From a virus, in the IMG/VR virus record IMGVR_UViG_3300006919_000286, positions 1 to 29,427 of that record: 29,427 nucleotides of DNA, one strand, 5' to 3'. Positions 3,219-16,632 of this stretch are shown here, piece after piece (the stretch's first letter is position 1; every line of letters begins with the position of its first letter). The notes beneath the pieces are model-generated. The model saw only the letters and a program-made list of their open reading frames with translations. It was not told where the DNA came from and searched no databases. The position numbers and the translations under genes were made by a program.

Positions 3219-3635
3219 ATGACTTGGTATTATGAAAACAAAATATATGAGCCCAACGAAGAGGATTTACGTTCTCTCGTTGGGTTTGTTTATTGTATCG
3301 AAGAAAAAACTACTGGTATGAAGTATATCGGTAAAAAGTTTTTTTGGAGGTCTAAGATACTCCCCGTAACAAAAACCCGTAAGAGACGTAAGAAAACCCT
3401 TGTAGAGAGTGATTGGCGTAACTACTTTGGATCAAACGAAGTTTTAAAAGAACGTGTTATTGAGAACGGAGAAAACATATATAATAGAGTAATATTAAAA
3501 TTATGTAAGACAAAGGGCGACTGTTCTTATTACGAAGCTAAACTTCAATTTGAATATGACGTTCTATTAGATGATAAATACTATAATAGTTTTATAGGTT
3601 GTAAAATACATTCTAAGCACTTAACTCATGATTAA
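3219..3635 (+). CDS. GIY-YIG-like nuclease-fold protein
   Basis: A 138-residue protein with GFVYCIEEKTTGMKYIGKK at about residues 22-40. This fits the GIY-YIG core: a GxVY strand, a loop, then YIGKK. A basic stretch (KTRKRRKK) and a SDWRNYFGSN segment follow. GIY-YIG enzymes cut DNA and include phage homing and repair nucleases. The usual downstream catalytic Arg and Glu cannot be assigned with certainty, so activity is uncertain. The ribosome binding site is weak. It overlaps the following kinase gene by 8 nt. Similar proteins occur in marine T4-like phages; this one may be a free-standing endonuclease or a degenerate relative. Confidence 0.65.
   Translation: MTWYYENKIYEPNEEDLRSLVGFVYCIEEKTTGMKYIGKKFFWRSKILPVTKTRKRRKKTLVESDWRNYFGSNEVLKERVIENGENIYNRVILKLCKTKGDCSYYEAKLQFEYDVLLDDKYYNSFIGCKIHSKHLTHD
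3573..3580 (+). promoter_or_regulatory. Possible T4-type late promoter (GATAAATA)
   Basis: GATAAATA differs at one position from the T4 late promoter TATAAATA and lies 48 nt upstream of the P-loop kinase start. Late expression would suit a packaged protein. In AT-rich DNA such a match can arise by chance. Confidence 0.25.
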
Positions 3636-4293
3636 TTTTAAACAGTTTATCTCAGAAGGGGTCAACGACCCCGCAATCTTCAAAGCAATCTTCCTCGCAG
3701 GCGGGCCCGGTTCGGGCAAATCTTTTATCGTTGGTCAGACCGCACTCACGGCATTGGGTATGCGTGTAGTGAACTCCGACGATGCCTTCGAGAATGCTAT
3801 GAAGAAGGCTGGTATGGAAATGAACCCCGAAAATATTTTCTCTGTCAAAGGTCAAGAAATGCGTGGCCGGGCAAAAACACTCACTGGTAAAAAACAAGAA
3901 CTCTATCTTAAAGGTCGTTTAGGTATCGTCATTGATGGTACTGGTAGAGAGTATGATAAAATCAAAAGACAGTCTATAGAGTTACAGAGACTTGGTTATG
4001 ATACCGCAATGATATTCGTCAACACCGATAGAGAAACCGCCTTGGCGCGCAATAGGGCGCGTACTAGGTCCCTTCCTGATGATGAAGTATCAAAAATGTG
4101 GCAGGCAGTACAGAACAATATCGGTAAATTCCAAGGGCATTTTGGTAGAAATTTCATCGTCCTAGATAATAGTGATGGTGCGAATTGGAAGGCGGGTACA
4201 CAACAAGGGTATAAGTGGGCTAGAAAGTTCACCGAGAAGGAACCAACTAAACCCGTGGCCAAAAAATGGATTGCGAGAGAGAAATCTAAATAA
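3628..4293 (+). CDS. P-loop kinase-like protein with a capsid-targeting-like N-terminus
   Basis: A 221-residue protein with a Walker A motif GGPGSGKS (residues 25-32), a VVNSDDAFE segment and GIVIDGTGRE as a likely Walker B-type strand, followed by an Arg-rich lid (ALARNRARTRSLPDDEV). This layout matches small-molecule or nucleotide kinases and the zeta-toxin-like group. The first ten residues, MINFKQFISE, resemble the T4 capsid-targeting sequence MKTYQEFIAE. ISE|G also fits the (I/L)xE cleavage rule of the T4 prohead protease. The protein could therefore be packed into the head, trimmed and delivered with the DNA; this is an inference. A near-late promoter lies upstream (3573). The substrate is unknown. 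Confidence 0.8.
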   Translation: MINFKQFISEGVNDPAIFKAIFLAGGPGSGKSFIVGQTALTALGMRVVNSDDAFENAMKKAGMEMNPENIFSVKGQEMRGRAKTLTGKKQELYLKGRLGIVIDGTGREYDKIKRQSIELQRLGYDTAMIFVNTDRETALARNRARTRSLPDDEVSKMWQAVQNNIGKFQGHFGRNFIVLDNSDGANWKAGTQQGYKWARKFTEKEPTKPVAKKWIAREKSK

Positions 4294-7696: not shown

Positions 7697-8446
7697 ATGA
7701 AAAATTTGATATTCCAGTACTACATTCCCTATGAGGCGAATGACACCCACCTAGGCGGTGTTGAAATGCCTGAATGGGCTAAGACGGGTTCTAGGTGTGC
7801 ACAAAAATATGCAGAACTTTGTGGTGCTGATTACATGTTGCTTCACGACAGGTTCTTTCCGGACCTAGACCCCAGACTAGATTCTAGTAGGATTCACTAC
7901 GACTCACAATTCTCCAAGTACGATAAGATTTTGGTTCTTGACCTTGATATGCTTATCACCACCCGAGAAAATATTTTTGATATACCAATCGAAGACGTTG
8001 CGATGGTACATGAAGTTGGTATTCATCAAAAGATGGGTGGGTGGTTATCAAAAGTGATGTACGTACCACTTGACCAAAGAGGTATTATCGCTTATGGTAA
8101 AAAACTTTTTGGTGACGATTGGACGTTTCCTAAATCTTCATTATACCCAAAAGAAAAGTGGAGATATATGAACGGTGGTTTACAACTCTGGTCAAAACAA
8201 GGAAGAGAAAAGGCCCGAGAACATTTTACATCACTAGACGATTATGTTATACACACAAGATATACCGAACAAATGTATGTCAATCTTCAGTTGTCGCAAC
8301 CAGTTTTTAAAGTAACAGAATTAGATAATAAGTGGAACCGTTTGCCTTATCAATGGGTGGGCCAACCTGATGGATATATTAATCACTTTTTGGCACGTCA
8401 TAAATTTAGTATGCCTGAATTAGAAAAAAGAGGAATGTGTATATGA
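7697..8446 (+). CDS. Glycosyltransferase-like protein 1 (DxD, GT8-like fold)
   Basis: A 249-residue protein of the nucleotide-diphospho-sugar transferase fold. KYDKILVLDLDMLITTRENI holds the DxD metal/nucleotide motif near residue 78. A conserved start (LIFQYYIPYE..MPEWAKTG), the CGADYMLLHD segment and YMNGGLQLWSK are shared in pattern with the genes at 12329, 13823 and 14627, so these are paralogs. It would transfer a sugar from an activated donor to an unknown acceptor. It is the first gene of the glycan cassette. The following methyltransferase gene overlaps it by four bases. Confidence 0.8.
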   Translation: MKNLIFQYYIPYEANDTHLGGVEMPEWAKTGSRCAQKYAELCGADYMLLHDRFFPDLDPRLDSSRIHYDSQFSKYDKILVLDLDMLITTRENIFDIPIEDVAMVHEVGIHQKMGGWLSKVMYVPLDQRGIIAYGKKLFGDDWTFPKSSLYPKEKWRYMNGGLQLWSKQGREKAREHFTSLDDYVIHTRYTEQMYVNLQLSQPVFKVTELDNKWNRLPYQWVGQPDGYINHFLARHKFSMPELEKRGMCI

Positions 8447-9054
8447 TGTTCTTGGAATTGGCCGCGAATCGTAAACGTGGTTTGAATTGGGATGCAGTAA
8501 ATGTTAGTAGTAATTATGGTGACAAAGCAGTAAAACTTCATGACCTAACTAACTTACCCATTAAGGGAATTCCTGATAATTTTTATGATGGTGTGTATTC
8601 AGAACATTTTATTGAACACATGTACAAGTATCAAGGTGTAAATGTCTTTAAAGAAATTATGCGAGTGTTGAAACCAGGCGGTGTTGTTCGAACAGTCTGG
8701 CCTTCATACGATGTTGTTGAGTGGTTAGTCGGTGAAGAGGATTTGTCAAATCACCCGTTTGTCAAACATTACTATCAAAGATACATTGTGCAAGAAAGAT
8801 TCTGCGCTGCAGGACATCAAAACAAAAGAATTCAAGAACAAGTTGCACTAGGTCTTCTTTATCAGAAGGGTGAACATTTATACCTTTGGGGTAAACAAGA
8901 AATGATTGACACCTTAACTTCTCTTGGTTTTCAGAATGCAAAAGAGTACGAATATGGTAAAAGTTCCTTGGCGGATTTTAATAACATCGATACGCCTGGC
9001 CAGATTCGTGCGATGCATTCTACCGTAGTTGAGGCTAAAAAATCATGGAAGTAA
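8443..9054 (+). CDS. SAM-dependent methyltransferase (class I)
   Basis: A 203-residue protein. NVSSNYGDKAVKLHDLTNLP is followed by FYDGVYSEHFIEHM and MRVLKPGGVVRTVWP, which match motifs II-IV of class I (Methyltransf_11-type) enzymes. A classical Gly-rich motif I is not evident at the N-terminus, as in several short sugar methyltransferases of this type. The ATG at 8443 was chosen: AAGAGGA is eight bases upstream and it overlaps the previous stop (ATGA). It probably methylates a sugar made by the cassette; the substrate is unknown. Confidence 0.75.
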   Translation: MMFLELAANRKRGLNWDAVNVSSNYGDKAVKLHDLTNLPIKGIPDNFYDGVYSEHFIEHMYKYQGVNVFKEIMRVLKPGGVVRTVWPSYDVVEWLVGEEDLSNHPFVKHYYQRYIVQERFCAAGHQNKRIQEQVALGLLYQKGEHLYLWGKQEMIDTLTSLGFQNAKEYEYGKSSLADFNNIDTPGQIRAMHSTVVEAKKSWK

Positions 9055-9449
9055 CCATAATAGTTACGGGTGATAACACTTTAAAACCTTTATGGCATCC
9101 ATTGTATTTTAAATACAAAGATGACCCCAAGTACCAAATCGTTTTTGCAAAGAATGTGATGAACGGAATTAATCACGCAAGATTCGCCAATGTGTTTGTA
9201 ACGAATTATAACGCTATTCCAACCTACAGAATGATGACTGAACTTCTGGAATTGAAAAAAGGTCAGATGATATGTCCCTCATGGCACAAGTATATGACTA
9301 ATAATTTTGAAGGTGCTGAGTGTGAAGAATCTTTCTCTGTTAATCGCGACCTATATAAAGGCGAAACGAAAAACGAATATATTAAAAAAAGAAACCCTGA
9401 AGTGATTAAAAAGGGAAAGATGTATTTTTTGATGAGGAATGATGAATGA
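9045..9449 (+). CDS. Unrecognised protein in the glycan cassette (134 aa)
   Basis: The 134-residue protein overlaps the genes on both sides (10 and 4 bases), so it belongs to the same message. It begins with a hydrophobic strand (MEVTIIVTGDN) and has aromatic/His residues (LWHPLYFKYK, MICPSWHKYM). The C-terminal third is basic. I recognise no family or catalytic motif. Context suggests an accessory role in sugar assembly or transfer. Confidence 0.65.
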   Translation: MEVTIIVTGDNTLKPLWHPLYFKYKDDPKYQIVFAKNVMNGINHARFANVFVTNYNAIPTYRMMTELLELKKGQMICPSWHKYMTNNFEGAECEESFSVNRDLYKGETKNEYIKKRNPEVIKKGKMYFLMRNDE

Positions 9450-10381
9450 AAATTTTAATTACAGGTGCAGCTGGTTTTATAGGTTTCCATGCAGCGAAAC
9501 ACTTCACTAGATTAGGACATGAAGTTTGGGGAGTAGATAATTTCAATTCTTATTACGACCCAGATTTAAAACACAAACGCGCTCAAATATTAAGAGACGA
9601 ATACAATGTAAAAATTGAAAAGATAGACTTAAAAAGTTCTGAAGAAACCACCTTTATCGTCGATAACATTAAACCCGACTTTTGTATTCATCTTGCCGCA
9701 ATGGCCGGTGTTCGTTATTCAATGGAACACGCTGATGAATATATCACAAATAATTGTATGGGCACTCTTAATCTTATCAATGCACTAGAGAAAAACGATT
9801 GTCAAAATGTTGTCTATGCTTCGACATCGTGTGTGTTACACGGCAATCCCTTACCTTGGGGAGAAAGTGAACATATCTATCCGCAAATTAATCCTTACGG
9901 ATACACCAAATTTATCAACGAATCGCAGTTTCATATCTCGAATATACCGAATGCTGTTGGACTAAGGTTCTTTACTGTATATGGTCCTTATGGTCGCCCA
10001 GATATGGCCCTGTTCGATTTCACTAAAAACATTCTTGATGGTAATCCTATAACCTTGTATAATTATGGCGAAATGAAAAGAGATTTTACTTATGTCGATG
10101 ATATCGTTCATGGCATTGAATGTGTTTTCAACAACATGACTCCACGTGATATGTACAACATTGGCAGAGGTGAACAGGTTGAATTGTCGCGTTTTGTACA
10201 AGCGATTCAAGACTCTCTTGGAATAGTAGCAGAAATTAAGTATGGCCCAAAACATCCCGCTGACGCTTTAGAGACATGGAGTGACACACGTAAACTTCAA
10301 GCGATAGGATACAACCCCCAAACATCTATCGAAGAAGGGGTAAACAACTTTGTTAAATGGTATAGGTCTTATCATAATTAG
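9446..10381 (+). CDS. NAD-dependent sugar-nucleotide epimerase, UDP-glucuronate 4-epimerase-like
   Basis: A 311-residue extended short-chain dehydrogenase. The NAD-binding loop GAAGFIG is at residues 7-13, AAMAGVRYSMEH is the typical substrate-side loop, and the catalytic pair is in NPYGYTKF (YxxxK). RFFTVYGPYGRPDMALF and FTYVDDIV are hallmarks of the UDP-glucuronate 4-epimerase group. The usual Ser before the Tyr falls in ASTSCVLHG, where the family often has SSSVYG. It would supply a hexuronic acid nucleotide (for example UDP-galacturonate) to the neighbouring transferases. Exact substrate is inferred from family resemblance. Confidence 0.87.
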   Translation: MKILITGAAGFIGFHAAKHFTRLGHEVWGVDNFNSYYDPDLKHKRAQILRDEYNVKIEKIDLKSSEETTFIVDNIKPDFCIHLAAMAGVRYSMEHADEYITNNCMGTLNLINALEKNDCQNVVYASTSCVLHGNPLPWGESEHIYPQINPYGYTKFINESQFHISNIPNAVGLRFFTVYGPYGRPDMALFDFTKNILDGNPITLYNYGEMKRDFTYVDDIVHGIECVFNNMTPRDMYNIGRGEQVELSRFVQAIQDSLGIVAEIKYGPKHPADALETWSDTRKLQAIGYNPQTSIEEGVNNFVKWYRSYHN

Positions 10382-10389
10382 GAATAAAA

Positions 10390-10989
10390 ATGAAAAATAT
10401 TATTTTAGAAATTGGTGTTAATACGGGTCAAGATGTAGATCGTTTATTGCAGTATCGAGGCAATTATCATGGTTTTGAACCAGTACCAGAACTCTATAAT
10501 AAACTGACTCAAAGATATCGAAATAACGAACGAGTAAAATTTTATCCTCATGCTGTTGATATTGAAGAAGGTTCAGCGACTTTTAATATTTCAAAACCAA
10601 CAGGTATTGCTTATGCTTACGGTTGTTCTAGTCTTCATGATTTTTCCACTAATCTAGATGAAGTATGGCCTGGTCGAGAAGATTTTGAAGTCGTAGAAAA
10701 AATTACCGTAGAGAAAGTTCGACTGGATAATTTTCTAGACAAAATCGAATATGACAAAATAAGTTATTTGTGGTGTGATGCACAAGGTAATGATTTAAAC
10801 GTACTTAAAAGTATGGGTGACCATGTTAAAAATATTCAAGAGGGCCGAATAGAGGTTGCCTACAGAGTTGAATTATATTCAAATACAGGTAATACCCACG
10901 GCAACGCTATTCAGTTTTTAGAAGAACACGGATTTAAATATCGTATACATAAACCTAATCATGAGTGTGATATTATATTTTGGCGATGA
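10390..10989 (+). CDS. FkbM-family methyltransferase
   Basis: A 199-residue protein. ILEIGVNTGQDVDRLL is the SAM-binding motif I, GFEPVPELYNKL is the acidic motif II region, and ITVEKVRLDNFL plus YLWCDAQGNDLNVLKSM match the conserved core of FkbM (Methyltransf_21) enzymes. FkbM proteins O-methylate sugars and polyketides. The gene overlaps the next one by four bases. Two methyltransferases in the cassette suggest a capped or methylated glycan. Confidence 0.83.
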   Translation: MKNIILEIGVNTGQDVDRLLQYRGNYHGFEPVPELYNKLTQRYRNNERVKFYPHAVDIEEGSATFNISKPTGIAYAYGCSSLHDFSTNLDEVWPGREDFEVVEKITVEKVRLDNFLDKIEYDKISYLWCDAQGNDLNVLKSMGDHVKNIQEGRIEVAYRVELYSNTGNTHGNAIQFLEEHGFKYRIHKPNHECDIIFWR

Positions 10990-12332
10990 TAAAATTAGTT
11001 CTTTTTGATTTGGATGGTGTTTTAGTAGACGCTAAAAATATTCACTATGTGTCTTTGAACAAAGCACTTCCGGAAGAATATATTATCACTCCCGAAGAAC
11101 ATCGTAATGTTTATGATGGTAGAAAGACCAAAGAAAAACTCCAGATGTTAACGGAGTCTAAAGGTCTTCCAGTAGAACTCCACGAATCGATTTTCAATCG
11201 TAAACAAAAAGAGACGGTTGAGATGATGCACGACCTACCTATCAACACTCATGCCTTAGACCTTTTCAAAGAGTTGGAAAATCTAGGATATATTATTGGT
11301 GTGTGTTCTAATTCTATTCGTAGAACTGTCTTGACAGCACTTGCAAAATCTGGTTTAATAGAATATTGTTCTGTGATTTTATCGAATGAGGATGTGAAGA
11401 ACTCTAAACCACATCCAGAAATATATTGGAAAGCAATGTCAATGATGGGTTGTCTTCCCGAAGAAACTGTAATTGTTGAAGATTCTCCGCCTGGTCTTCT
11501 CGCAGCAGCACGCTCAAGAGCCACATACATAAGAGTAGAAAGTACTAAAGATGTTACTAAAGAAAAAATCATGTCTAAATTGGAAACTAACGAAGTGAAA
11601 AACGTTTGGAAAGAAGAAAAGTTAAATGTCTTAATTCCTATGGCTGGTGCAGGTTCTAGATTTGCACAAGCTGGATACACATTCCCCAAACCCTTGATTG
11701 ATATTAAAGGTAAACCGATGATTCAGGTTGTGGTCGAAAATCTTGGGTTAGAAGCGAATTATATTTTTGTGTGTCAAAAAGAACATAACGAAAAATACAA
11801 TTTGAAGAACATGTTGTCTCTCATTGCACCCAACTGTAAAGTTGTTGAAGTCGACAGAATCACTGAAGGTGCAGCTTGTACTGCTCTTTTAGCGAAAGAT
11901 TACATCAATTCAGAAGACCCATTGTTTTTCGCTAACAGTGATCAATGGGTAAACTGGGACCCTGTTCAGTTTATGTATAATATGCAGGAGAGTCATGCTG
12001 ATGGTGGAATTGTTACGTTTAAGGCCACACACCCCAAGTGGTCTTTTGCAGAAGTTGATGAACACGGTATAGTTAGAAAGGTTGCTGAAAAAGACCCTAT
12101 TTCCGATAACGCTACAGTAGGTTTTTATTACTGGAAAAAAGGTTCTGACTTTGTAAAATATGCCGAACAAATGATAGAAAGAGATATTCGTGTCAATAAC
12201 GAATTCTATGTTTGTCCAGTGTTCAACCAAGCTATTGAAGATAATAAAATAATTAGAACGTATCAAGCGAATGAGATGTGGGGATTGGGTACTCCCGAAG
12301 ATTTATCATATTATTTGGAGAACAAGTCTTGA
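10986..12332 (+). CDS. HAD phosphatase / sugar nucleotidyltransferase fusion
   Basis: A 448-residue two-domain protein. Residues 1 to about 205 are a HAD hydrolase: DLDGVLVD (8-15) carries the nucleophile and acid Asp, VCSNS is motif II, NSKPHPEIY has the motif III Lys, and EDSPPGLLAA has the motif IV acid. From about residue 212 a nucleotidyltransferase follows: IPMAGAGSRFAQAG (GxGxRF loop), FPKPLIDIKGKPM, and FANSDQ as the metal-binding acid. One chain could dephosphorylate a sugar phosphate and another site make an NDP-sugar, or the two may act in sequence. The ATG at 10986 overlaps the previous stop (ATGA). Confidence 0.85.
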   Translation: MIKLVLFDLDGVLVDAKNIHYVSLNKALPEEYIITPEEHRNVYDGRKTKEKLQMLTESKGLPVELHESIFNRKQKETVEMMHDLPINTHALDLFKELENLGYIIGVCSNSIRRTVLTALAKSGLIEYCSVILSNEDVKNSKPHPEIYWKAMSMMGCLPEETVIVEDSPPGLLAAARSRATYIRVESTKDVTKEKIMSKLETNEVKNVWKEEKLNVLIPMAGAGSRFAQAGYTFPKPLIDIKGKPMIQVVVENLGLEANYIFVCQKEHNEKYNLKNMLSLIAPNCKVVEVDRITEGAACTALLAKDYINSEDPLFFANSDQWVNWDPVQFMYNMQESHADGGIVTFKATHPKWSFAEVDEHGIVRKVAEKDPISDNATVGFYYWKKGSDFVKYAEQMIERDIRVNNEFYVCPVFNQAIEDNKIIRTYQANEMWGLGTPEDLSYYLENKS

Positions 12333-13081
12333 ATCTGATATTACAACATTTTGAAGGCACCATGCCTGAATGGGCGTATTACTGTGAGAAGACGGTGAAA
12401 CGTTATGCAGAGATGACAGGGGCAGATTATCAACTGATTCGTGGTTTTCCTATGGGTAAAGAACTTGGGTTTACTCCACAGAAATTGTGTCTCCTATTAG
12501 AAAAGTATGACGAGTATGACCAAGTGTGTATGATTGATATGGACACGATTGCGACTAAAAGATACCAGAGTTTCTGGAATAGACCTGAAATTGGTGTGTT
12601 GCATGATAGAGCGATTGCTGGACCTAAAGCGTTGAATGCTGTTACGAGAAAACCTCATCCTAGCAAAACACCTGAGGCTGCACCTAATCTATACAAACAA
12701 GGGTCGTGGTGTTTCTTTGGTAATTGGATAAAACTTAATAGAGAACAAAGGCAAGAACTCAGAAAACATTGGAATCAAAAACTATTTGAAGAATCTCTGG
12801 TGGATAAACATCCAGGCGATGAAGTTATCTTACATTATCTTTTTCATCAATCTAAAATCCTAGACGGTAAACATCCCCGTGATGTTTGTATGAGAACGGA
12901 TTATCGAGACGGCGAAGATTTATGTAATCTAAAATTTAGAGAGGATTCTCGGTGGGACAAGAAATTCTGCAATCAACCAGAGGATTCTGACCCTGATGCA
13001 TCATTGATACATTTTTGTGCTGGGAGAAAAAGACAGATTGTCAGTGCTGTCAAATCGATTTACGGTAATATGATTATATGA
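12329..13081 (+). CDS. Glycosyltransferase-like protein 2 (DxD)
   Basis: A 250-residue paralog of the 7697 protein. I place the start at TTG 12329, overlapping the previous stop (TTGA), because the protein then begins LNLILQHFEGTMPEWA, matching the N-termini of its paralogs, and GGAG lies eight bases upstream. MTGADYQLIRG and YDQVCMIDMDTIATKRY (DxD) align with the family. The C-terminal SDPDASLIHFCAG fits the usual acceptor-side His. No longer ATG start gives a better fit. Donor and acceptor are unknown. Confidence 0.78.
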   Translation: MNLILQHFEGTMPEWAYYCEKTVKRYAEMTGADYQLIRGFPMGKELGFTPQKLCLLLEKYDEYDQVCMIDMDTIATKRYQSFWNRPEIGVLHDRAIAGPKALNAVTRKPHPSKTPEAAPNLYKQGSWCFFGNWIKLNREQRQELRKHWNQKLFEESLVDKHPGDEVILHYLFHQSKILDGKHPRDVCMRTDYRDGEDLCNLKFREDSRWDKKFCNQPEDSDPDASLIHFCAGRKRQIVSAVKSIYGNMII

Positions 13082-13818
13082 AGACAGCAATCTGTTTTTC
13101 CGGCATTCCTAGAGGTGATGTTGCCTCATGTGTGGAAAAATATAAAAAAGTTTTTCCTGATGCTGACCCGTTTTATTTTACATGGACCGAATATAAAACG
13201 GAGATGGAATCCATACTAAACTCTTCAGTCGATCACGCTGAAGAACCAGAAATAGATTACTGTGCATTTTTAGAGTCACCCACATTTCCAAATAAAGATG
13301 GTTCTGAATCCACTGTCGGTCCTAACGTAATCACTAACAATCCCAACCGAATGAAAAGATTTCGGGACAACTGGGAATATGCACATTTTAAGGCCCTTCG
13401 TACCAAACAGTTAATCGGTCACGCTTTACATCTTGAAAAAATTCCGTTAGAATATGATATGATAATTCGTGCTCGTTACGACATTGAAATATCTTTAAAG
13501 TGTGACTTCGACCGATACGTTGAAAATTCATACGAGAAAAAACGAGCTATCGGATTTTCGTTTGGTGTTAATGGTATTAGTGGTAACTGGGAAACAATTA
13601 AACATCTAGATGGCAACTATCAAGATGAGGGTAGAAAATATCTAGAAGATTTTATGATATTTCATCCTAGAGAAATGTATGATTCCGAATGGGTTAAGAA
13701 GTTATATAAATCTAAACAACTGTATCCATCTGAAATCGGTTGGTATCAGGTATTGAGTTACCCATTCGGTACCAATCATTTATGTTGCGGTGGTGGTGTT
13801 AGATTAGCATATAGGTAA
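13078..13818 (+). CDS. Putative glycosyltransferase-like protein with RARYD motif
   Basis: A 246-residue protein. ICFSGIPRGD opens the first strand, FPDADPFYFTWTEYK follows, and YDMIIRARYDIEI carries an RxRxD element in the position where similar phage and capsule-cluster proteins bind a nucleotide sugar. The C-terminus has GGGVRLAYR. I do not recognise a named family with certainty. It overlaps the previous gene by four bases and sits between transferases, so a transferase role is likely. Confidence 0.6.
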   Translation: MKTAICFSGIPRGDVASCVEKYKKVFPDADPFYFTWTEYKTEMESILNSSVDHAEEPEIDYCAFLESPTFPNKDGSESTVGPNVITNNPNRMKRFRDNWEYAHFKALRTKQLIGHALHLEKIPLEYDMIIRARYDIEISLKCDFDRYVENSYEKKRAIGFSFGVNGISGNWETIKHLDGNYQDEGRKYLEDFMIFHPREMYDSEWVKKLYKSKQLYPSEIGWYQVLSYPFGTNHLCCGGGVRLAYR

Positions 13819-13822
13819 AAAT

Positions 13823-14623
13823 ATGAAATGTTTGATATATCAGTACTGGGATGGTACACCATCTAGTGAATGTTTGGCGAGTACTTCGGCTATGAAAGAA
13901 TATGCCAATCGAATTGGTGCCGACCATTTGTTCGAACGCGACCCTAAGTATGTAACGGGTTTAGGAAAATACTCTCCACACTACGGTCAATTCAAAGTGG
14001 TGTTCGATAAATCCTTTGACCAGTATGATAAAATTCTTTTCACTGATACAGATGTCTTTCCTACAGAAAATCTCGAAGAAAATATCTTTGATGAAATAGA
14101 AGATAAAGACATTGCTATTGTGGAAGAATGGCAACAGATAGAGGTTAGGAAAAAACATACCGTTGCGGGAATTAATCACGCTAATGATAAAATATGGGCC
14201 AGAGTTGTAGAATCAAAATGGGATGTTACGTTACCCAAAGCTGAGTGTGGTTCAGTTAAAGCCTATAATTCTGGTGTGGTATTGTGGTCTAGAAAAGGTA
14301 TAAACAAAGCTCGAACAAGGTTTGTTCCTTTTCAAAGTTATGTTTCAATGATAAACTTTTCTGGACTACCTGTATTCTATACATGTGACCAACCATACAT
14401 ACACGCAATGTTAGAAGTAGCTGGATTAAATTGGAAAGAGTTGGACTACAAATGGAATAGTTCAGTACACTATGTGCCTGGTACAAAGGAACCAAGACCC
14501 GTTAACGATTTAAGAGAGGGTCGTGCTAATTTTGTACATGTTCAATTAGCTGGTGCTAATCGTTACAATGCTGAGAAACTTTCACGCATTGTAAATCTCC
14601 CTGTCGAACAATGGAACTTATAA
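13823..14623 (+). CDS. Glycosyltransferase-like protein 3 (DxD)
   Basis: A 266-residue paralog. MKCLIYQYWDGTPSSECLAS, RIGADHLFERDP and QYDKILFTDTDVFPTENLEE (DxD) align with the proteins at 7697, 12329 and 14627. It also has AYNSGVVLWSRKG, matching the NGGLQLWSK block of the first paralog, and a late DYKWNSSVHYVP segment. Four bases separate it from the previous gene. Similar length and motif order across the set point to repeated duplication followed by divergence. Confidence 0.8.
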   Translation: MKCLIYQYWDGTPSSECLASTSAMKEYANRIGADHLFERDPKYVTGLGKYSPHYGQFKVVFDKSFDQYDKILFTDTDVFPTENLEENIFDEIEDKDIAIVEEWQQIEVRKKHTVAGINHANDKIWARVVESKWDVTLPKAECGSVKAYNSGVVLWSRKGINKARTRFVPFQSYVSMINFSGLPVFYTCDQPYIHAMLEVAGLNWKELDYKWNSSVHYVPGTKEPRPVNDLREGRANFVHVQLAGANRYNAEKLSRIVNLPVEQWNL

Positions 14624-14626
14624 GTT

Positions 14627-15334
14627 ATGAAAGGTATTATTCTACAACACTTCGAACCACAAGCAGTTAATCGAGACCCTGAACTTGGTTCTGAAACTCC
14701 CCGCCCTTGGATTGTGAATAAAAGTATCGCAAACATTAAAAATTATGCTGAAAAGATTGGCGCAGAATATCGTTTATTGTCAGGTGAACCTTTTCGGCCT
14801 GGATTGAGAGCCCAATGTCAGAAGTGTGCGATGATTAATGAAGAGTATGATGAATATGATGTAGTGGTCATGTTAGATACTGATAAGTTCATGGTGAAAG
14901 GTTGTCAAGAAAACATCCTCGAAGCAAAAGGAATTGCACCCTTTGACAAAATTCATAGTGATATGATTCTACCAAAGTTTTATAGACAATTCCCTCATTG
15001 GGCCAGTATGAATACACCAATCTGGTCGGGCGCTTGTTATGTGATGCCTAGAGATTTTCGTATCTTAATGAGAAATCAAATTAATCCTGAAATGGAAAGA
15101 ATGTTTAAACAGGTTAGTCCATTGCCCTTTGTAGATGAAGGTATTTTTCATTGTCTCTCAGTAAAAGCTGGTATTACTATTGGTCCTAAGTATAATCTAG
15201 ATTCACGATGGGATCAGAGCAGTTATCTACCCAATCCTGAGAAAGCATTTATGTTACATATGAGACATAAACCAAAACCAAGAGATGAGAATCTGAAAGA
15301 CTTTATCGCAAAAGGAATAATCGAAGACCTTTAA
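14627..15334 (+). CDS. Glycosyltransferase-like protein 4 (DxD)
   Basis: A 235-residue paralog. MKGIILQHFEPQ, KIGAEYRLLSGEPF and EYDVVVMLDTDKFMVKGCQE (DxD) match the family core. The middle has SGACYVMPRDF in place of the NGGLQLW block, and the end has AFMLHMRHKPKPRDE. It is somewhat shorter than its paralogs. It begins three bases after the preceding stop. Substrates unknown. Confidence 0.78.
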   Translation: MKGIILQHFEPQAVNRDPELGSETPRPWIVNKSIANIKNYAEKIGAEYRLLSGEPFRPGLRAQCQKCAMINEEYDEYDVVVMLDTDKFMVKGCQENILEAKGIAPFDKIHSDMILPKFYRQFPHWASMNTPIWSGACYVMPRDFRILMRNQINPEMERMFKQVSPLPFVDEGIFHCLSVKAGITIGPKYNLDSRWDQSSYLPNPEKAFMLHMRHKPKPRDENLKDFIAKGIIEDL

Positions 15335-15335
15335 T

Positions 15336-15983
15336 ATGAAATCATTTGTTATAACAATTCAATCAAACCCCAAGTCCGTAGAGGCCGCGTCTCGTTGTAT
15401 AAAGTCGATGCCCGAACACAACGTACAGATGTTCGATGCGATTACACCAAACGACAATCCCGAAAAATTGTTCGAAGAAAAGGGTATCAACCCCGAAGGC
15501 TTCATTGAAAAATATTCTTATCTTGAGTCGTGTATGTCTGCCTTTCTTTCTCACCATACTTTATGGGAGAAGTGCGTAGAAGATAATCAAGAATACCAAA
15601 TCTTCGAACATGATGCGGTAGCGGTAAATAATATCCCCTTGTTCATTAACTATGATAAAGTAATCTCTTTGGGTCAACCTAGTTATGGAAAGTATAACAC
15701 ACCAATGCACATCGGTGCTGGACCACTTGTTTCTAAAAGATATTTTCCAGGCGCCCATGCATACAGACTAAAACCTGCTGGTGCGAAGATTCTCATTGAA
15801 ACTGCAAAGACCAAAGGTGGACCAACAGACGTTTATCTTAACCTGATACATTTTCCTTGGTTAGAAGAGTACTACCCCTGGCCTGTAGCAGCAAAGGATT
15901 ATTTCACAACCATACAAAAAACCGAAGGTTGTTTAGCGAAACATAACTGGAAAGGTGGTCAGAATTATGAAATCGTTCGATAA
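15336..15983 (+). CDS. GT25-like glycosyltransferase (LPS type)
   Basis: A 215-residue protein. MKSFVITIQSNPKSVEAASR opens like GT25 enzymes, CMSAFLSHHTLWEKC matches the family's conserved Ser-His-Leu-Trp block, and YQIFEHDAVAV fits the FEDDa metal-site region with E-H-D in place of E-D-D. RLKPAGAKILIETAK follows as the usual nucleotide-side helix. GT25 enzymes add galactose or glucose to lipooligosaccharide. The next gene starts inside its last codons (17-base overlap). Confidence 0.75.
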   Translation: MKSFVITIQSNPKSVEAASRCIKSMPEHNVQMFDAITPNDNPEKLFEEKGINPEGFIEKYSYLESCMSAFLSHHTLWEKCVEDNQEYQIFEHDAVAVNNIPLFINYDKVISLGQPSYGKYNTPMHIGAGPLVSKRYFPGAHAYRLKPAGAKILIETAKTKGGPTDVYLNLIHFPWLEEYYPWPVAAKDYFTTIQKTEGCLAKHNWKGGQNYEIVR

Positions 15984-16632
15984 GTGTTTCGTTACTGGAT
16001 GTGACCAAAACACTGAATGGATGCTTCCGTGGTTCATGAAGAACTACCTGAAACACAATACGACTCCTATAGTGTTTGCTGACTTTGGTGTCAGCGATGC
16101 GACTCGTTCTTGGGCATATCAGATTGGTGGTTTTGCTGAAATGTTCCAAGTTGATAAACAGAGAACTGGTGGATGGTTCTATAAACCTCAAGCATTGAGA
16201 AAAACAGACGGAAAGTATGTTTGTTGGTTAGATACTGATATTCATATTCTTGGTGATATGTCTGGAATCTTCGATCATTTCGAACCTAACAAATTAGCTA
16301 TGGTGGAAGATGTTGGTTGGACAAAACGAAGAGGAGAAACATGGCATAACTCTGGTGTTGTAGGAATAATTAATAAACCAAACATCTTGACAAAGTGGGA
16401 ACAACAGTGTAAAATAAACCCTTCAGTTGGAGATCAAGAAGTTCTTCATGAAATGGTTAGAGCTAGTCCTTTAACGAGAATGACAAACATCACTTCTTTA
16501 CCTAATATATACAATTGGATGCGTCTTCAAATATTAGATGGGAATGACAACCCAAATAAGTTGGCTATGCATTGGACGGGATTTAAAGGAAAAGAACAGA
16601 TTAGGAAAATAATGTACCATGAAAAAAAATGA
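15967..16632 (+). CDS. Glycosyltransferase-like protein 5 (DxD)
   Basis: A 221-residue protein. CFVTGCDQNTEWMLPWFMKN opens it, GGWFYKPQALRKT is a typical donor-site helix, and GKYVCWLDTDIHILGDMSGI contains the DxD motif. EDVGWTKRRGETWHNSGVVG follows. It is more distant from the other four DxD transferases. The ATG at 15967 was preferred to 15955 because GGTGG is about nine bases upstream. It overlaps both neighbours. Acceptor unknown. Confidence 0.75.
   Translation: MKSFDKCFVTGCDQNTEWMLPWFMKNYLKHNTTPIVFADFGVSDATRSWAYQIGGFAEMFQVDKQRTGGWFYKPQALRKTDGKYVCWLDTDIHILGDMSGIFDHFEPNKLAMVEDVGWTKRRGETWHNSGVVGIINKPNILTKWEQQCKINPSVGDQEVLHEMVRASPLTRMTNITSLPNIYNWMRLQILDGNDNPNKLAMHWTGFKGKEQIRKIMYHEKK

Follow-up and report, generated by a model that had tools for sequence, protein, structure and literature searches.

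A P-loop kinase gene of a T4-like phage opens with what looks like a head-targeting sequence, which raises the question of whether the enzyme is packed in the capsid and enters the host with the DNA. The window (the whole stretch of 29,427 nucleotides analyzed here) is a genome fragment (29 kb) from a marine, T4-like bacteriophage and includes genes for gp32, baseplate proteins, PhoH and the DNA end protector. Head genes are absent from the fragment; they are carried, a gp21-type protease among them, by two close relatives, G001 (a 94-kb contig) and G002 (146 kb), whose kinases are 95% identical to that of the window.

The Kinase Gene and Its N-Terminal Tag

The kinase gene occupies positions 3628-4293 (+ strand) and codes for a protein of 221 amino acids that begins MINFKQFISEGVNDPAIFKAIFLAGGPGSGKS. 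Its assignment as a P-loop kinase, proposed in the preliminary description, was borne out by Pfam matches to AAA_33 (3.7e-11) and Zeta_toxin (PF06414; 1.4e-9, 38.1 bits, above the cut-off). The Walker A motif GGPGSGK (residues 25-31; 3700-3720, + strand) is invariant save for one position in a wide alignment, and the active site (Walker A, D51, R141, R145 and R147) is conserved across the kinases. E10 and G11 are invariant as well and are directly followed by a conserved DPxIFKA block. The genes ahead of the kinase are not head genes: a SegE-type GIY-YIG gene (3219-3635, + strand; PF19835, 2.6e-32), which shares 8 nt with the 5' end of the kinase gene, and a gene for ribonucleotide reductase. 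Elsewhere in the window, positions 7697-16632 hold a long series of open reading frames that read as glycosyltransferase-like and sugar-nucleotide-type, and positions 9446-10381 encode what reads as an NAD-dependent epimerase-like protein.

Positions 3628-3660 translate as MINFKQFISEG, the opening of the 221-codon frame. The first ten codons (MINFKQFISE; 3628-3657, + strand) form a capsid-targeting-like propeptide whose positions 4, 7, 8 and 10 are conserved as in the T4 capsid-targeting sequence (CTS), and the mature part is predicted to start at codon 11 (3658). In T4 IPIII, targeting to the head depends on residues 4 and 7 and processing on residues 8 and 10; the protease gp21 cleaves after L/I-x-E (PMC9026906). 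As read from NC_000866, T4 ipII and ipIII start with MKTYQEFIAE/A and ipI with MKTFKEFTSTTTPVSTITE/A (the slash stands for the cut). The window protein has aromatic residues, F4 and F7, at both targeting positions, and its residues 8-11, ISE/G, fit L/I-x-E followed by a small residue. The predicted prohead protease site, Glu10/Gly11 (3655-3660, + strand), is conserved in relatives. The likeness of MINFKQFISE to MKTYQEFIAE, which had been noted earlier, holds.

A strict CTS-like pattern was tried on five T4-like sequences and matched 7 of 841 gene starts versus 4 of 3198 internal methionines (Fisher p = 0.0025). It found no match in HTVC008M, though the kinase of this phage keeps a shortened tag; a looser pattern produced many internal matches, probably by chance. 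Judged by sequence comparison, the capsid-targeting-like tag on the kinase is real and well beyond chance.

Conservation of the Tag among Kinases

Kinase loci were collected from two scans of viral contigs (80 loci per scan, with some contigs occurring twice), and 17 more came from cellular genome assemblies. Stand-alone kinases were dereplicated to 62, of which 33 have a ten-residue tag. Position 4 is F or Y in 32 of these 33 non-redundant tags, a count somewhat favored by our rule for choosing start codons, which preferred an aromatic-followed candidate where there were several (most loci had a single one). Position 7 (F, Y or H), position 8 (I, L, M or V) and position 10 (E) follow the pattern in all 33, and positions 3, 5, 6 and 9 are the most variable. 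Within the tag, only residues 4, 7, 8 and 10 are constrained, in agreement with the mutagenesis of IPIII (PMC9026906). Taken together, the comparative evidence strongly supports packaging.

The tags are between 8 and 21 residues long (for example, MLKFSNFIQQLDE/G, MQTFKDYLEISE/G and MLTFENYLKEEFVTLKRELEE/G), while the end of the tag, [ILMVF]-x-E/G, is constant in all 62 stand-alone kinases; P2 is free and is filled by 12 different residues. Such an end, with variable length in front of it, argues for packaging. The proposed fit of ISE/G to the protease rule of T4 is borne out by the whole set, and homologs lacking the leader, named earlier as evidence that would speak against packaging, did not appear: no stand-alone homolog without a tag was found among the 62. 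The retention of the tag in every distinct stand-alone relative suggests that the kinase is probably delivered ready-made at infection.

Kinases of Straboviridae that are only ~24% identical also keep a tag, which further argues for packaging: RB43, a phage of E. coli (MKSFKDFVSLDE/A), KP27, a phage of Klebsiella (MKSFKQFTESTLTE/A), S13 (MNFKEFCQLDE/A) and Aeromonas phage 65 (MKKFSEFIKLEE/K). In a four-sequence set, the profile of the marine family matched S13, Aeromonas phage 65 and RB43 at 5e-12 to 8e-18. Homologs in the E. coli phages RB43, RB16 and Lw1 make the packaging idea testable in the laboratory. A further homolog, gp187 of the Tenacibaculum phage PTm1 (L217:864-2705), is split inside Walker A (GGAG / SGKG) by ~310 residues that begin with Cys and look like an intein.

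A gp21-type protease, whose presence had been suggested as a check, was found (PF03420) in G001, G002, HTVC008M and Melnitz, which is consistent with cleavage of a packaged kinase. The window is a fragment devoid of head genes, and for its own phage the protease is putative.

Fused Kinases

At twelve further loci the kinase lies inside a longer open reading frame. The fusion junction reads hydrophobic-x-E/G in 12/12, with V or L at P3. Five of these frames (L161, L166, L174, L186 and L193) have a tag-like start (MLVKGFKQFNE, MIKGFKQFNE or MIQSFKQFKE) and, behind it, a nucleotidyltransferase bearing a motif of the FGRFNPPTTGH type. Elsewhere the fused protein opens without a clear tag (L124, L156, L179, L190, L197 and L209), or its start is cut off (L181 and L185). 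A nucleotidyltransferase-type domain is present in three of the proteins whose clear start tag is absent (L124, L156 and L209); the remaining fused loci are without it or cut off. A tree of 75 kinases requires the stand-alone and fused states to have changed into one another at least five times. That fused kinases keep V/L-x-E/G through these changes argues for packaging; that in about half of the fused forms the long protein does not begin with a clear tag argues against it.

The L156 protein contains four internal CTS-like segments (FEMFLEE, FEAYLNE/A, FEAFITE/E and FESYLEE/G; 0.12 expected). Such repeats are not typical of fused kinases in general; the eight others tested have none.

In the jumbo phage Atu_ph07, the kinase (gp53) forms the rear part of a fusion whose front domain shows, by reading, an ART-like YRGM motif. 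This domain has no Pfam match, and its start resembles a tag. The fusion belongs to a row of ten consecutive genes (L084:3254-5587, L091:39484-50000) whose products all start with M[KR]WxxL-x-E, and most of them carry YRGM or YRGI, suggestive of ADP-ribosyltransferases. The row lies in the cluster of CDS 31-76, from which mass spectrometry found 29 virion proteins, a figure that refers to the cluster and not to gp53 individually.

Tagged Proteins in Virions

Other genes of related genomes also begin with a tag of this kind, as the preliminary description had asked to see. In all three virion-detected nucleotidyltransferases whose sequence was read, the protein starts with it: T4-GC190 of S-SM1 (MKKFSAFLNE/A), detected in virions (PMC3037559); NMNAT of S-SCSM1 (MKSFLQFLKE/A), annotated, like neighboring genes of the same island, as a virion protein (PMC9602691); and S-SZBM1_140 (MRFRQFIIE/A), detected in virions (PMC9146016). 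A cytidylyltransferase of S-CREM2 was detected in virions as well (PMC10665884); its start lies outside our tag comparison. These tagged enzymes lend support to packaging of the kinase. The authors of the cyanophage virion studies left it possible that such enzymes co-purify rather than are packaged, and some of the S-SCSM1 island virion proteins have no tag. One annotated virion protein of S-SCSM1, the 69-residue gp279 (L211:6508-6717), ends with RTFKEFLEYIE, which is tag-like and C-terminal.

This island recurs in G002, where a nucleotidyltransferase (MIPSFKQFLVE/E), a DUF6267 protein (MKTLSDFLTE/Q) and a 135-amino acid protein (VKTFKAFINE/A) are tagged and late promoters lie within the island. 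A search for ligase relatives of DUF6267 (phmmer versus PDB) returned only weak myosin matches, so this relationship was rejected and the KxDG resemblance comes from reading alone. Among the papers searched, we found none tying kinase or nucleotidyltransferase proteins to the T4 tag, and the terms "capsid targeting" and "cyanophage" occurred together only in a T4 review.

A tag may also bring the kinase into the head for a role there, in core assembly or DNA packing, rather than as an injected effector. The rule for the protease site also holds for the core proteins of T4, IPIII has an effect on head assembly as well (PMC9026906), and in G002 a tagged small open reading frame adjoins gp21. A core filler, however, needs no intact, conserved active site such as that described above, and T4 ejects its internal proteins of this class (PMC9026906); we therefore regard a purely in-head role as very unlikely.

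Structural Model of the Kinase

In an AlphaFold model built with 35 sequences (mean pLDDT 86), residues 1-9 have pLDDT under 50 and a helix is placed at residues 4-12. As modeled, the protein is a detachable leader ahead of a compact enzyme, and the disorder of the tag agrees with packaging.

The helix suggests another explanation, that the tag is the first helix of the kinase fold, E-G its structural cap and the protein an ordinary enzyme made during infection and left unpackaged. The invariance of E10 and G11, which run straight into the DPxIFKA block, points the same way, and the invariant E-G could be partly structural. However, besides the low confidence of residues 1-9, the tag changes in length while hydrophobic-x-E/G stays, unrelated virion proteins begin with the same pattern, and fused kinases keep the junction without the helix start. 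We consider this explanation unlikely, if a little less so than an in-head role.

Sequences Upstream of Kinase Genes

The argument from a late-like promoter upstream of the kinase does not hold for the copy in the window, though it does for relatives. The octamer GATAAATA is present at 3573-3580 (+ strand), with 47 nt between it and the kinase ATG; it is probably no more than a stretch of segE codons (..DDKYYN..), and nothing like it precedes the kinase of the 146-kb sister genome G002, where G-variants of the late promoter octamer are rare. We therefore give it little weight as a promoter. The lack of a convincing late promoter of its own, together with its place behind segE and a ribonucleotide reductase gene, argues against packaging of the window kinase.

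Among the 62 kinases, ATAAATA is present within 60 nt upstream in 26, where shuffling predicts 2.6, and in none on the other strand. In many relatives the element is TATAAATA in intergenic DNA. Late-type promoters upstream of many relatives are in line with packaging.

The element (T/C)ATAAATA often starts exactly 13 nt before the ATG (6 of 18 in HTVC008M, L085-L087; 3 of 22 in Melnitz, L088-L090; 0 of 9 in S-SM1) or, in G002 (L094-L101; 3 of 15), 13-14 nt before it. The 13-nt distance also occurs at kinase loci L011, L025, L055, L167, L201 and L208. With a T4-like transcription start, late mRNAs at this spacing would be leaderless.

Fold Relatives and Possible Substrates

Fold matches of the model were PSTK (VIA Z 16.0), polynucleotide kinase (PNK) of C. 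thermocellum (4jt2; 15.6), T4 PNK (1ly1; 13.4) and zeta toxin (13.4), with ~17-21% identity over the matched part; sequence matches were to zeta toxin, adenylate kinase and PSTK. Our leading guess, held tentatively and at well below even odds, is that the kinase heals RNA or DNA ends in the manner of PNK, partnered by the HAD nucleotidase that lies beside it in several phages. A HAD nucleotidase gene follows the kinase in RB43 and KP27, and the island of HTVC008M and Melnitz contains a nucleotidase of the NT5C type.

A different substrate, compatible with a packaged and injected kinase, would be nicotinamide riboside. The kinase would phosphorylate it and the nucleotidyltransferase would make NAD, as in a packaged NadR-like pair restoring NAD depleted by host defence. 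Such a role fits the nucleotidyltransferase partner, which is fused to or lies beside the kinase in several phages, the recurrence of NMNAT-like proteins in cyanophage virions and the two-domain layout of NadR (PMC9503650). The kinase nevertheless resembles PSTK, PNK, zeta toxin and adenylate kinase, with the NadR kinase not among the listed sequence or fold matches; the substrate of the nucleotidyltransferase is putative, and in RB43 and KP27 the neighbor is a HAD nucleotidase instead. The NadR-like pair is thus improbable.

Discussion

We propose, with a probability of roughly four in five, that the kinase is packaged by its CTS-like tag, trimmed by gp21 and probably injected. By analogy with T4 IPIII, late in infection the tag would dock the kinase on the prohead core via residues 4 and 7, and the docked enzyme would be enclosed when the shell forms. 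A gp21-type prohead protease would then cut after Glu10, freeing the compact kinase beside the DNA in the head. On infection, the kinase would be ejected with the genome and would act in the host ahead of phage gene expression.

A broader view, which we find possible and rate somewhat below an even chance, is that marine T4-like phages load a kit of enzymes into the head via a shared N-terminal address code and inject it for repair or counter-defence. Its members would be the kinase, NMNAT-like nucleotidyltransferase, DUF6267 (with its KxDG motif) and nuclease-like proteins, some of them as protease-cut polyproteins. Known in T4 from small anti-restriction proteins, the head-addressing tag is here extended to nucleotidyltransferases and a catalytic kinase of abundant marine phages. 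The tag offers a simple explanation for the recurrence of NMNAT-like enzymes in cyanophage virions, and it supplies a sequence rule by which injected effectors can be predicted.

Among known systems, the fold is that of polynucleotide kinases, PSTK and zeta toxins; identity over the matched part is low, and the fold by itself does not reveal the substrate. The cyanophage NMNAT-like cytidylyltransferases share the tag, a linked island and, in some phages, fusion to the kinase, but they are a different enzyme, and their presence in virions comes from mass spectrometry while that of the kinase is predicted. T4 Alt and the ART arrays of Atu_ph07 are likewise catalytic cargo, and a fusion in Atu_ph07 places the kinase itself after an ART-like domain; the predicted cargo of the window is, in contrast, a stand-alone kinase and not an ADP-ribosyltransferase. 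The closest parallel is with T4 IPI, IPII and IPIII, which have about ten N-terminal residues with an aromatic residue at position 4, an aromatic residue (or H) at position 7 and L/I-x-E before the cut; spacer and length variants among the kinase tags share the layout of ipI. The cargo of T4 is a small anti-restriction protein, whereas here it is a P-loop kinase whose packaging and cleavage are predicted.
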